Positions 19,780 to 24,854 of a stretch of DNA of 47,168 nucleotides are shown one piece after another; positions within the stretch are counted from its first letter, which is position 1; the number at the start of each line of letters is the position of its first letter. A model generated the notes under the pieces. That model did not search any database. It was not told the origin of the DNA and saw only the letters and a program-made list of their open reading frames with translations. The stretch is from assembly GCA_002721725.1 (NCBI GenBank), contig PBLK01000008.1:205618-252785 (forward strand), written 5' to 3'. Source of the DNA: Rhodobiaceae bacterium. GTDB taxonomy: Bacteria > Pseudomonadota > Alphaproteobacteria > RS24. Both the position numbers and the translations under genes were made by a program.

Positions 19780-20544
19780 ATGATTCTGCTGAAAAACCGC
19801 TTTTTATTGCCTGTCTTCGTGGGCCTATTGATTTTGTTGCCGACGGTTTCAATGGCGCAAACCGTTGAGGTGGCGGCTGATGCGGCTGCCGAAACAGCGC
19901 CCGGCTTTTGGGCGCTCTTGTTTTCCAAGGGCGGTGTGGTGACATGGGTTATTGCCCTTTTATCGGCCGTCGGCCTACCGATTGCTGCCATTAAGCTCTA
20001 TGAATTTTACCGGATGGATATTTTTCGCCCAAGCGCCCTCGAGGAGGCGCTTGGCGACATGCGGCGCGGCAAAACCGCCGGTTTGGGTGCGCGCTTGGAT
20101 GCGCTCGCCCATCCTGCAGCGCCACTTATTGCTTTTGCCTTGAGCCAAAGCAGCGCTGCGCGTTTGGCCCCGGCCGTGCTGCGCGAAGAATTGACGCGCC
20201 GCGCGCAATTTTTGGTGCGTCATCTGTCGCGCAATATTTGGGTGCTCGAATTGATTGCCGCCTCGGCCCCTTTGTTCGGCCTATTGGGCACGGTGCTCGG
20301 CATGATCATCGCTTTTCAAGGCGTTGGCCAGGGGGTTGGCGGGACTGATACGGCGTTATTGGCGGCGGGTATTTGGGAAGCCTTATTGACCACCGCTTTC
20401 GGGCTGGGCGTGGCCTTGCCGTTTTCAATTCTCGCCGCCGTTTTCAATAATGCGGTTGATGGTGTGCGCGATATGGTGGAAGACGCATTGACCGAGATTT
20501 TGGTGCGCGCCGACAGCCGAAGTGCCAAATCAAGCGAGGGCTAG
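19780..20544 (+). CDS. ExbB/TolQ/MotA-type proton channel subunit
   Basis: A 254-residue inner-membrane protein. It starts with a signal-like hydrophobic segment (residues 7-26, 'AQ' at 26-27), a short periplasmic stretch, then three channel helices at about 52-72, 157-181 and 203-223. The last two carry the family motifs 'ASAPLFGLLGTVLGMIIAF' and 'GIWEALLTTAFGLGVALPF', with the conserved Thr and Glu that line the pore. An extra N-terminal segment is common in ExbB proteins outside the enterobacterial TonB system. Two in-frame ATGs (19765, 19780) are possible; 19780 has tggag upstream. It is the first gene of a five-gene run; the next starts 3 bp later. Confidence 0.9.
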   Translation: MILLKNRFLLPVFVGLLILLPTVSMAQTVEVAADAAAETAPGFWALLFSKGGVVTWVIALLSAVGLPIAAIKLYEFYRMDIFRPSALEEALGDMRRGKTAGLGARLDALAHPAAPLIAFALSQSSAARLAPAVLREELTRRAQFLVRHLSRNIWVLELIAASAPLFGLLGTVLGMIIAFQGVGQGVGGTDTALLAAGIWEALLTTAFGLGVALPFSILAAVFNNAVDGVRDMVEDALTEILVRADSRSAKSSEG

Positions 20545-20547
20545 CCC

Positions 20548-20967
20548 GTGCGATTGGCCATCCGCCCACGCCGCGCTGCCTTTATGGGGCTGACCCCTCT
20601 TATAGATATGATTTTTTTGCTGCTGCTGTTTTTCCTGCTCGGCTCCGATTTCGTGACCTATGGACAAAGCCGTTTAGCCCCGCCGCGTGGCACTGGCGGG
20701 GAGAGCAGCGCTGCCCCGCCCGTGCTTATCACCCTGTCTGAAACTGGCGCGTTGAGCTGGAACGGCGCGCCTGCCAATGCGGCTTTTTTAAGCCGCGAAA
20801 CGACGCGCTTGGTGGCGCTCAATGAAGAGCAGACAATGGTTCTCATGCCTGCCGGCGCGGCTAATATTCAACAAGTCAGTGATATTATGGATGTGCTGCA
20901 CCATGCTGGTGCACGCTCCATCACGCTGGAGCGTGACGTGTTTGAAATTGATTTGGCAGATTTTTGA
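20548..20967 (+). CDS. ExbD/TolR-type protein with intact membrane Asp
   Basis: A 139-residue protein with one N-terminal membrane helix and a periplasmic domain. The helix starts 'LTPLIDMIFLLLLFFLLG' with Asp20, the residue that carries protons in ExbD and TolR. The C-terminal part ends with the family's 'VSDIMDVLHHAGARSITLE' helix-strand. It begins with GTG directly after the ExbB stop (3-bp gap). No ATG gives a complete membrane helix, which supports the GTG. Its stop is one base before the start of the second ExbD-like gene. Confidence 0.92.
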   Translation: MRLAIRPRRAAFMGLTPLIDMIFLLLLFFLLGSDFVTYGQSRLAPPRGTGGESSAAPPVLITLSETGALSWNGAPANAAFLSRETTRLVALNEEQTMVLMPAGAANIQQVSDIMDVLHHAGARSITLERDVFEIDLADF

Positions 20968-20968
20968 C

Positions 20969-21394
20969 ATGCAACTGAAAGAGACACGCCGCGAGATAAA
21001 ATCTATTGATTTGCTGCCACTTATCAATGTGGTGTTTCTGCTGATTTTATTCGTTTTGATTGCCGGTCGCCCCTCAACTAATCATCCGTCCAACCTCGAA
21101 GTGGCGCGCAGCACGATCGAAACCGCGCATCAAGGCGCGGCCTTGTCGGTTTGGCTGAAGCAGGATGACACTTTTTATCTGTCGGAAACGAAGCCGGTAA
21201 CGCTTGGTGAATTGACCATGCTAGTCACCGAGAAAGACCTGGCGGCGCAGGGCCTGCCTTTGGAGCTGATTGCTGACCGCCGCGCCCATGCTAGGCAATT
21301 ATTGGCTTTTCGCCGCGCAATGGCGCGCGCCGGTGTCGGTGAGATCCGCTTGAAAACTGAGGTCAGAGCGCCTTCGGCGACAAATACGCAGTGA
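20969..21394 (+). CDS. Second ExbD-like protein, with Asn in place of the membrane Asp
   Basis: A 141-residue ExbD/TolR homologue: short basic N-terminus, one membrane helix 'LLPLINVVFLLILFVLIAG' and a periplasmic domain ending 'LLAFRRAMARAGVGEIRLKT'. At residue 20, where the preceding ExbD has Asp, this one has Asn (codon AAT in 'CTTATCAATGTG'). Proton transport by ExbD and TolR depends on that carboxylate, so this copy probably cannot carry protons and may pair structurally with the intact copy. In a dimeric ExbD pair inside the ExbB pentamer this would make an asymmetric channel (inference). The ATG at 20969 follows the previous stop by one base. The open frame further upstream is within exbD and is not used. 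Confidence 0.9.
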   Translation: MQLKETRREIKSIDLLPLINVVFLLILFVLIAGRPSTNHPSNLEVARSTIETAHQGAALSVWLKQDDTFYLSETKPVTLGELTMLVTEKDLAAQGLPLELIADRRAHARQLLAFRRAMARAGVGEIRLKTEVRAPSATNTQ

Positions 21395-21422: not shown

Positions 21423-22559
21423 ATGGACGATATATTGCAGAAAAGCGGCTGGTTTAGCCGGATGCGTGCGCGTCTGGTTGCGGTGCCGCGGCGCGTCTGG
21501 TTAAGCCTTTTGGCGGCCTCTTTAGCGGCGCATATTTTGGCCGTCGGCTTGGTGTTGGTTCTGCTGTTTGGCGGCGAACGGGGCGGTGGCGATGCCGAGG
21601 ACAGCCTTGTCATCTCATCGGGAGAAGCCGCCCCCGAAGATATTGATCTTAAGCTGCCGCAACATATGCCGGTTGAGGCACCGCGCTTGGCTAAGGACGA
21701 ACTCGATTTATCGGAACTTTTGGAAGTGCCGCTGGAGGCGGATTTTAATGATTTGATGATGGATAATGCGCAAATGGCGGCAATTGCCCCGGCCATGCCA
21801 TTGCCTAGCGCCGCCGTAACCCAGCGCGCCATGTCGGGCGGAGGTCTTATCTCCGGTGTGCCGCGAAGCTTTGCCGATTATATCCAGCATTTGCAAAAAA
21901 CCGGCATTGACGTGGTGTTTGCCATTGATGCCACCGGCTCGATGGTATGGGTGCATCGCACGGTGCGCCAGCGCATGGCACAATTGGCGGCCTATGTGCG
22001 CGGGCTCGTGCCTTTGGCGCGCTTCGGCATTATCGCCTATCGCGATTATAATGATATTGATTTTGTAACGCGCATTTCGCAACCCAGTTTCGATATAGAA
22101 AAAGCACGGCTTTTTATGAGCGGCATTGATGCTTTGGGTGGCGGTGACCACCCCGAAGCGGTGACGCAAGCTTTGCGCGATAGCGAGACCATTATTGGTT
22201 GGCGCAGCGGCGCCCAGCGCGTCGTCATTATTATCGGAGATGCGCCGCCGCATGCGCGCGAAACGAACGAGGCGGCAGAAATTGCCGAGCGCTTTAAATC
22301 TCGCGGCGGGCGCTTGTCTTTATTGGACAGTCGGGTTGAGGCCAATCGCGCGCTTTTGGGGCGCGGTAAGCCTACCGGTTCAGGGGTTGATTTGGTCAAA
22401 CAGGGGGTGATGCCGGTGTTTCGTAGGCTCGCCCGTTTGGGCGGCGGCACGGCGGCGACATTGGCAGCCGAGCGGGAATTGATGAAAACCCTCGCCCTAT
22501 TGATTTTTGACGACCGTTTTCACGATGAGCTGGCGCCGTTTTTGGCCAATTTGGAGTAG
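21423..22559 (+). CDS. Membrane-anchored vWA-domain protein with a TonB/TolA-like N-terminal helix
   Basis: A 378-residue protein. Residues 1-25 are short and basic (cytoplasmic), then comes one membrane helix (about 26-49, 'WLSLLAASLAAHILAVGLVL'). It contains Ser33-x3-His37, the spacing found in the membrane helix of TonB and TolA, where it contacts the ExbBD or TolQR channel. A proline- and acid-containing linker (50-155) leads to a periplasmic von Willebrand A domain (about 162-365) with the metal site 'DVVFAIDATGSM' (Asp169, Thr171, Ser173), 'GGGDHPEAV' (Asp242) and 'IIIGDAPPH' (Asp273). vWA domains bind protein ligands through a metal ion. No TonB-type C-terminal domain exists. It is the fourth gene of the run. 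Confidence 0.88.
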   Translation: MDDILQKSGWFSRMRARLVAVPRRVWLSLLAASLAAHILAVGLVLVLLFGGERGGGDAEDSLVISSGEAAPEDIDLKLPQHMPVEAPRLAKDELDLSELLEVPLEADFNDLMMDNAQMAAIAPAMPLPSAAVTQRAMSGGGLISGVPRSFADYIQHLQKTGIDVVFAIDATGSMVWVHRTVRQRMAQLAAYVRGLVPLARFGIIAYRDYNDIDFVTRISQPSFDIEKARLFMSGIDALGGGDHPEAVTQALRDSETIIGWRSGAQRVVIIIGDAPPHARETNEAAEIAERFKSRGGRLSLLDSRVEANRALLGRGKPTGSGVDLVKQGVMPVFRRLARLGGGTAATLAAERELMKTLALLIFDDRFHDELAPFLANLE

Positions 22560-22562
22560 CTG

Positions 22563-24854
22563 ATGGTGCGCTTGATGAGCCTTTTTGTTTTTCTGCTGAC
22601 GCCGCTGACGGCGGTGGCATGCGGAGCGCCGCCGTCGCTTTTGATGACCACGCCGCCGCAGCTCTTGCGCGGCTTAGAAAAAGATAAAGCAGCGTTTCTT
22701 GACGCTATGGACAATTATTCGATTGCGATGGAGGCGTGTTATGACGGCCCACAAGGGCCACTGGAATTGGCTCCACATATCAAAGCGGCAAATTTGTTGC
22801 ATGCCAATATCACCGCCATGCGCCGTTTGGCCGAAGATAAGGTGCGCGATAATGAGTTTGATTATGAGGCGCTGTTATCATCCCCGCTTTGGGGCGATAT
22901 TGAAGCCATGCGGGTGGCCGCCACCTATGCCACCGCATGGGGCGCTTTGGCGGCAGCAGTGCGCCATATTTCAGCCGAAGACAAAAAGCAAGCGCTCGAC
23001 CTAGCCGGTGAGGCGATGCAGCAATTGACCTTCGAATTCAAGCATCCGGTCTTGGTGCAGCGCGCCATGTATGGTTTGGCGACGTCCCAGATTGAAGGCG
23101 GCCGCCTAGCGGCAGCAGTCGCAACCTTGACGCGGCTAAGGCAATCTTTGGCGCGCGGCGGCGATGCTGATTTTAAAATATCGGTTGACGGTTTTTATGC
23201 CCGCATCACCGCCCCGGGCTACCAGCCGCCGGCGCCCCTATTTGAGACGGCGGAAACGCCGGCCAATGAAAGCGGCGCGCGCTTGGCCTTGACTGGCAAG
23301 GCCGGCGATGATGCGGTTAAACTGGCGCGTATTGCCTTGGCGGAGGCGCGTCCGGCCTCAGAGATAATCGGCATTTTGGAACCGGCTTTGCGCGGCACGC
23401 GTACCAGCGCGCGAGCCGCACTTGCCTTGATTGCCCGCGACCAGCTTTTATTGAAGGCGATGGATTATGCGCCTGGGCCATCTCTGCGGGTCATGCGCCG
23501 CGCTTTTGCAGACGGTCAATATGGTCAATTGGTTGCGAGCTGGCCCGATTTGAAACCCTATTATCCGCTTTTGCCCGACGGTTTGAAGCGGCAAGTGGAT
23601 TACCATATGGGAGTGGCGCGCCTCAATTTGGGCGAATTGGTTTTGGCGCTCGACCATTTGCGCGCGGCGCGCCGAGCGACACCGAGCGGCGCGGAGGCGT
23701 CGCGCCTCGATAAGCTGATCATTTTGGCGCGCCTGTCGGTCGATAAGCCGCCTAAGGCGCCGCTGATTGCGTTGGCCAAAAAAAACGTGCGCCCGCCGCA
23801 GAAAATAGAAAAACAAAGAGCCATTGATGACCCGCCGCCGACGCCGGAAGAGGCGCTTGATGACATGCTCGATTTGCGCGCCCGCATCGTGTTGGCCCGC
23901 CATGCGGCGGCGCAAGCCGATTGGGCGACGGCGGACGGTTATTTGACTGGCATCGGACCCCAGCAATCAGCCTATCAATTATTTCTCGGTATGCGGGTGC
24001 GGCTCTTGGCCGAGGCGGTGCGCGGGCGTTTAAAGAAAGGCGAAAGCGTCAAGGCGGTGCGCAGCATTGCGCGCGGTGGGCATATTCTTTATCGCCTTTG
24101 GCGCGACAGCGATTGCTTGCCCGGCTGCCCGAGGAGTAATCGCCTCGCAGTGCACCGCGCGGCTTTTGAAACCGCGCTGATGGCCCGACTTAATAGCACC
24201 GCTTTCGGCCTTGCTTGGGGTGGCTTTGTTGATGAGGGCGGCGACATCAAACCTTTTGTTGGCCAGGCCCTCCCCTATTTGATCGATCAAGCCGATGGTG
24301 AAAGGCTGATGGCGATGCTGGAAAACGATAACGAAGATTTGGCAGCCTTTACACTGGGTCAATGGAAAAGACATTTGAGTGCGCGCCTCAAAAAACCTGA
24401 TTTCGACGGGCGCTATCAATTTTTGAGCGCATTGGCCGACATGCAAGGTCGCCCGCATGCGGTTTTGCTGGAGGCATTGGTCGAACATGATTTAACGCGC
24501 GAGCGACCGGCAGAGGCGCTTATCCATGCTGAAACATTGGCCGTCAATTTCCCACGCCGACCGTCGGCTTGGTTTTGGCGCGCTGCCGCTTTGCAAGCCA
24601 ATCAGCGTGGGCTGGAAGCGGCGCGCACTTTATCCTCATTGGCGCAGCGCACCCCGTCCGATGATCCGGTCGGCATGGGTGCGCGGCTCGGCCTGGCAGC
24701 CCTGTTCGTCGATTTGCAGCGCGGTAACCAGGCCTGCGCCATGCGCGAGAAAATATTTTCACGCCCGCAAGCCGAATCACGCTGGCGCAATGCGGCGCAA
24801 GCTTTTCCGCCCTTAAAGGATTGGCAAAAAACCACAGACCGCTATTGTGGCTGA
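22563..24854 (+). CDS. Large exported helical-repeat (TPR-like) protein
   Basis: A 763-residue protein with an N-terminal signal ('LMSLFVFLLTPLTAVAC'), where Cys20 could be either the lipid-bearing Cys of a weak lipobox (AVAC) or the first mature residue. The rest is alpha-helical with repeated pairs such as 'HMGVARLNLGELVLALDHLR' and 'PSAWFWRAAALQANQRGLEA', read as TPR-like repeats though divergent. Several Cys pairs ('CLPGC', 'ACAMREK', the final 'RYCG') fit an oxidising compartment. I recognise no catalytic motif. It starts 3 bp after the vWA gene and ends the cluster, convergent with purH (10-bp gap). It probably works with the vWA protein in the periplasm (inference). Confidence 0.8.
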   Translation: MVRLMSLFVFLLTPLTAVACGAPPSLLMTTPPQLLRGLEKDKAAFLDAMDNYSIAMEACYDGPQGPLELAPHIKAANLLHANITAMRRLAEDKVRDNEFDYEALLSSPLWGDIEAMRVAATYATAWGALAAAVRHISAEDKKQALDLAGEAMQQLTFEFKHPVLVQRAMYGLATSQIEGGRLAAAVATLTRLRQSLARGGDADFKISVDGFYARITAPGYQPPAPLFETAETPANESGARLALTGKAGDDAVKLARIALAEARPASEIIGILEPALRGTRTSARAALALIARDQLLLKAMDYAPGPSLRVMRRAFADGQYGQLVASWPDLKPYYPLLPDGLKRQVDYHMGVARLNLGELVLALDHLRAARRATPSGAEASRLDKLIILARLSVDKPPKAPLIALAKKNVRPPQKIEKQRAIDDPPPTPEEALDDMLDLRARIVLARHAAAQADWATADGYLTGIGPQQSAYQLFLGMRVRLLAEAVRGRLKKGESVKAVRSIARGGHILYRLWRDSDCLPGCPRSNRLAVHRAAFETALMARLNSTAFGLAWGGFVDEGGDIKPFVGQALPYLIDQADGERLMAMLENDNEDLAAFTLGQWKRHLSARLKKPDFDGRYQFLSALADMQGRPHAVLLEALVEHDLTRERPAEALIHAETLAVNFPRRPSAWFWRAAALQANQRGLEAARTLSSLAQRTPSDDPVGMGARLGLAALFVDLQRGNQACAMREKIFSRPQAESRWRNAAQAFPPLKDWQKTTDRYCG

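Follow-up and report, generated by a model that had tools for sequence, protein, structure and literature searches.

The DNA analysed here (the window) is a stretch of 47,168 nucleotides from a Rhodobiaceae bacterium, and carries on its forward strand a run of five genes in the order exbB, exbD1, exbD2, a gene for a putative vWA protein and a gene for a TPR protein (Table 1). The two ExbD-type genes are immediate neighbours, exbD2 starting 1 base past the exbD1 stop codon, and they differ at the residue on which ExbD proteins carry protons: aspartate (Asp) in ExbD1 and asparagine (Asn) in ExbD2. The open frame of exbB extends from 19735, and a Shine-Dalgarno-like GGAGG lies upstream of the ATG at 19780. 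The same genome (1.7 Mb) contains two further ExbD-type genes, one in a Tol locus and one in a Ton locus, the latter adjoining the only TonB C-terminal domain of the genome. Since both of these ExbD proteins have Asp, the ExbD1-ExbD2 pair of the window belongs to a third, separate motor.

Table 1. Genes of the two-ExbD operon, with their positions in the window.
Feature	Position	Strand	Evidence
ExbB/TolQ-type pentamer subunit, N-terminal signal-like segment	19780..20544	+	PF01618, 88.9 bits
ExbD1, axle subunit with proton-carrying Asp20 (GAT, 20605-20607)	20548..20967	+	PF02472, 64.6 bits
ExbD2, axle subunit with Asn20 (AAT, 21026-21028) for Asp and Leu16 for the family Thr	20969..21394	+	PF02472, 38.6 bits
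TonB-like force transducer with putative vWA C-terminal part	21423..22559	+	weak vWA matches below cut-off
TPR protein with signal peptide, conserved alongside the motor	22563..24854	+	weak TPR_6 match

The original prediction held that ExbD1 has Asp20 and ExbD2 has Asn20, that the Asn stands in the place of the proton carrier, and that the replacement matters; conservation strongly supports the last two points. The residues and codons are as it described, the N-termini reading MRLAIRPRRAAFMGLTPLID20MIF in ExbD1 and MQLKETRREIKSIDLLPLIN20VVF in ExbD2. Both proteins score above the curated cut-off of the Pfam ExbD family (PF02472; 25.4 bits), and an AlphaFold2 model of ExbD2 (mean predicted local distance difference test score 82) shows a transmembrane helix plus an ExbD-type periplasmic domain, with a Foldseek template-modelling score of 0.82 to 8vgc. 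When a profile of ExbD2 relatives was aligned with the solved chains 7ajq and 6tyi, Asn20 fell on Asp25 of Escherichia coli and Serratia marcescens ExbD, so that ExbD2 lacks the proton-carrying Asp that the family has in the transmembrane helix. The corresponding D25N substitution inactivates E. coli ExbD (PMC11658791), and D22N in MotB serves as a mimic of the protonated state (PMC9389320). ExbD2 is unable to carry protons on residue 20.

This substitution is not peculiar to the window. An ExbD2 match was present in 20 of 28 genomes of the window's order, and all 20 distinct orthologues have Asn, at identities down to ~58%; the orthologues with Asp that the original prediction named as its refutation did not appear, and a local mutation or sequencing error was ruled out. 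Class- and phylum-wide searches together with 60 fetched regions yielded 78 adjacent ExbD pairs outside the order, comprising 73 Asp/Asn pairs, one Asp/Ser pair, three Asp/Asp pairs and one pair with a truncated first gene. One of the Asp/Asp pairs, L098 (G613), was taken out of the count because it is a tandem of another family, of TolR type and close to ExbB-like sequences; this leaves 73 of 76 family pairs as Asp/Asn, two as Asp/Asp and one as Asp/Ser. The exceptions, Ser in L109 (G656) and Asp in L081 (G538) and L086 (G136), are useful natural comparisons. None of the surveyed adjacent pairs had the order Asn/Asp or Asn/Asn. Pairs were collected with an ExbD2 profile, by which other tandem exbD families are under-represented, and the claim covers this ExbD1-ExbD2 family rather than all tandem ExbDs. 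The family occurs in roughly 55-60 of 386 alphaproteobacterial genomes, plus a few from other classes (G571, G430, G442).

Across the homologues aligned, the first copy has Asp in 79 of 79 and the second copy has Asn in 76 of 79. By parsimony the trait column changed three times in ExbD2, against a column median of 29, and not at all in ExbD1, against a median of 27. Outside the window's clade, Asn is encoded by AAT and AAC equally (35:35), and an Asp codon is one transition away; shared ancestry alone therefore fails to explain the conservation, and the alignments indicate that the Asn of ExbD2 is kept by selection. A tree of 174 ExbD rows, calculated with the trait column left out, placed first and second copies in two groups, L098 aside. 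The tree is short, with many weak forks, and is consistent with one old duplication after which Asn was fixed in the second copy, the residue later changing back to Asp twice (L081, L086) and to Ser once. The Asp/Asn pattern is an ancient family trait; dozens of bacterial lineages retain the pairing, which thus looks like the built-in property of a half-disarmed motor and not like an isolated mutation. Decaying copies typically lose a catalytic residue, which would fit ExbD2 as a decaying duplicate, and its Asn could also be a local mutation or sequencing error; with Asn fixed across order and class, synonymous codons saturated, and frame and fold intact, the orthologues refute this explanation and we give it almost no credence.

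The Asn is accompanied by a second substitution in the same helix. The Thr that lies four residues before the Asp is retained in 71 of 79 ExbD1 proteins and in all 14 other ExbD/TolR proteins compared, while 78 of 79 ExbD2 proteins have Leu, Val or Ile there. With both Asp and Thr replaced, the second helix is left without either polar residue. This helix is nevertheless the best-conserved part of ExbD2, averaging 8.4 changes per column versus 31.2 elsewhere, as would be expected if it sits inside the ExbB pore.

The two genes also travel together. In a search of the 386 alphaproteobacterial genomes with an ExbD1 profile, all 62 genuine ExbD1-type genes adjoin an ExbD2 match (tables compared by eye). 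One candidate for an ExbD1 without ExbD2, G053, turned out to be a TolR-type single gene. In 34 of 74 operons the two genes share 4 bases at the exbD1 stop and the exbD2 start, an arrangement that favours 1:1 synthesis of the two proteins. A 294-residue open frame in L060 was considered as a natural ExbD1-ExbD2 fusion and rejected, the end of ExbD1 being out of frame as the result of a frameshift. These observations bear on whether the working axle might instead be a homodimer of ExbD1, with ExbD2 as an accessory or regulatory protein that idles or doses the motor in the pore, or that acts mostly in the periplasm by binding peptidoglycan or the transducer. Ton and Tol motors with solved structures have Asp-only homodimers as a rule, ExbD1 lacks none of the residues expected of it, and two lineages have Asp in both copies. 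However, the 62 of 62 pairing and the translational overlap suggest that ExbD2 is a stoichiometric part, and it is its transmembrane helix, not its periplasmic domain, that is best conserved. We consider an ExbD1 homodimer unlikely, while still according it some weight.

The ExbB of the window conserves the Thr of LLGT and the Glu and Thr of WEALLTT, and the pair of threonines that line the proton path (T148 and T181 in E. coli) is retained in essentially every operon. Among orthologous loci, ExbB is 65-89% identical. Many Asp/Asn operons (L053, L065 and L081 among them) have Val, Leu, Ala or Gln in place of the Glu near the second pore Thr (E176 in E. coli), which the window keeps. In principle the same ExbB could take either ExbD, and homodimers of ExbD2 might sit in ExbB pentamers of their own, tight to protons and serving as static structures, in which Asn and the lost Thr would leave the pore inert. 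Yet a single ExbB gene serves both ExbDs, and neither an Asn/Asn nor an Asn-only locus was seen in the survey. We regard this arrangement as highly improbable.

The product of the fourth gene has a cytoplasmic tail, a single transmembrane helix with S33-x3-H37, a linker, and a putative vWA domain with a DATGS motif. Matches of the vWA stretch to VWA_4 (E-value 8e-5) and TIGR03788 (9e-8) are both below the curated cut-off, and a Pfam search found no TonB C-terminal domain (PF03544) in this protein. Within the window's clade, the vWA gene is present in 16 of 17 orthologous loci, the 17th contig ending soon after exbD2, and the TPR gene lies downstream in the same 16. Across operons more widely, the fourth gene encodes a transducer of TonB type whose hydrophobic helix in most cases bears SxxxH; a TonB C-terminal domain was found in five of seven operons tested outside the window's PS1 clade. 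A named example with TonB is the plasmid NZ_CP083557.1 of Leisingera sp. S132, on which WP_260018949.1 has Asp and WP_260018950.1 has Asn. The transducer is thus TonB in most genomes and the SxxxH vWA protein in the window's clade. Separately, in a small group (L056, L065, L068, L069 and L071) the fourth gene encodes a TonB-like helix and, after it, conserved cysteines in the C-terminal domain. L056 and L069 were tested and gave no Pfam match above cut-off, and the group is possibly a further transducer type.

We propose that these proteins form a proton-driven motor of the 5:2 type with a heterodimeric axle, in which five ExbB subunits would make the pore around one ExbD1 and one ExbD2. Solved Ton, Tol and Mot motors have a five-subunit pore with exactly two axle helices, each with one Asp. 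In an ExbD1-ExbD2 axle, two equivalent carboxylates are excluded by the sequence, whereas an ExbD1 homodimer would have them. ExbD1 would supply the sole proton-carrying carboxylate, and ExbD2 would contribute a matching helix and periplasmic domain, its permanently neutral Asn acting as a natural mimic of protonation. Protons would pass only when Asp20 of ExbD1 encounters one ExbB after another, giving one proton per 72 degrees and five per turn, versus ten per turn in 36-degree steps. Being asymmetric, the axle would present two non-equivalent periplasmic domains, one of which might dock the transducer. That role would fall in the window to the vWA protein with its SxxxH transmembrane helix, partnered in the periplasm by the TPR protein, and in most other genomes to TonB.

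Because the genes are obligately adjacent, their translation is coupled, the ExbD2 helix is conserved as a pore helix would be and the ExbB threonines are intact, a heterodimer is the most economical reading, and to this extent the suggestion in the original prediction of a heterodimer with one working proton path is partly supported. The analysis shows the conserved Asp/Asn, the obligate pairing of the genes, the intact ExbB threonines, the ExbD fold and the SxxxH transducer; the heterodimer, the stoichiometry, the stepping and the direction of force are inferred. Several points weigh against this model. The evidence for the heterodimer is indirect, and an AlphaFold2 model in which the ExbD1 and ExbD2 frames were read as one across the stop codon folded both ExbD domains well but had a predicted template-modelling score of 0.60 and low-confidence linkers, and is mute on pairing. 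The Asp/Asp pairs of L081 and L086 imply that a neutral second site is dispensable in places. Finally, on our reading of PMC9389320, an axle with one carboxylate should stall in the published turnstile scheme, in which the doubly neutral state is locked; by the same reading, it could turn in a scheme that needs both sites neutral, advancing 72 degrees per proton. On balance, we think that ExbB5-ExbD1-ExbD2 is probably a motor of the 5:2 type that has one proton carrier on a heteromeric axle and drives a TonB-type transducer. The ten-fold symmetry of 5:2 motors has been called almost certainly universal (PMC9389320). The more specific proposition, that this is a natural 5:1:1 rotary motor taking five protons per turn, whose built-in neutral site breaks the ten-fold symmetry and whose cycle works via the neutral-neutral state, we put forward tentatively and with slightly more doubt than conviction.

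The system resembles several that have been described. With the Ton ExbB-ExbD complexes of E. coli and S. marcescens (6tyi, 7ajq, 9ddo) it shares Pfam families, pore threonines, the ExbD transmembrane helix and periplasmic fold, and a transducer helix with SxxxH. In contrast to the window, with its two genes, the second having Asn and lacking the preceding Thr, those complexes have a single ExbD gene whose product is a homodimer with two Asp25 residues. In tonB1-exbB1-exbD1-exbD2 of Sphingobium SYK-6, two exbD genes lie side by side in an operon that also has exbB and tonB; unlike in the window, both ExbD proteins keep Asp25 (PMC8599685). Likewise, AglR-AglQ-AglS of Myxococcus combines one TolQ-like with two TolR-like proteins, although Asp is stated for both of the latter (PMC9389320). 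Motors with vWA force transducers were described in 2025 from Proteobacteria and the Planctomycetes-Verrucomicrobia-Chlamydiae (PVC) group, with a TPR gene reported next to them (PMC12204202). The window operon fits this family, having the S and H of an SHLS motif in the transmembrane helix and a transducer gene beside tolQ-like, two tolR-like and TPR genes in an order conserved in the clade; the section of that paper on vWA motors makes no mention of Asn in the second tolR-like protein. We found no description of an Asn-bearing ExbD, an ExbD heterodimer or a mixed D/N stator in the literature searched, outside which lay preprints and most subscription papers. The kind of motor and the vWA operon type are already known; a conserved, carboxylate-free second ExbD was not described in that literature.

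Published models of 5:2 motors compete over whether protons are exchanged on an axle that is neutral at both sites or charged at both (PMC9389320), and a naturally fixed Asp/Asn pair removes the second of these states. Should the pair operate as a mixed axle, it would select among these models (turnstile versus both-protonated) and would halve the number of protons per turn. Operons of this family are common in Alphaproteobacteria, mostly with ordinary TonB proteins, which makes the question testable in culturable, non-pathogenic bacteria such as Leisingera.
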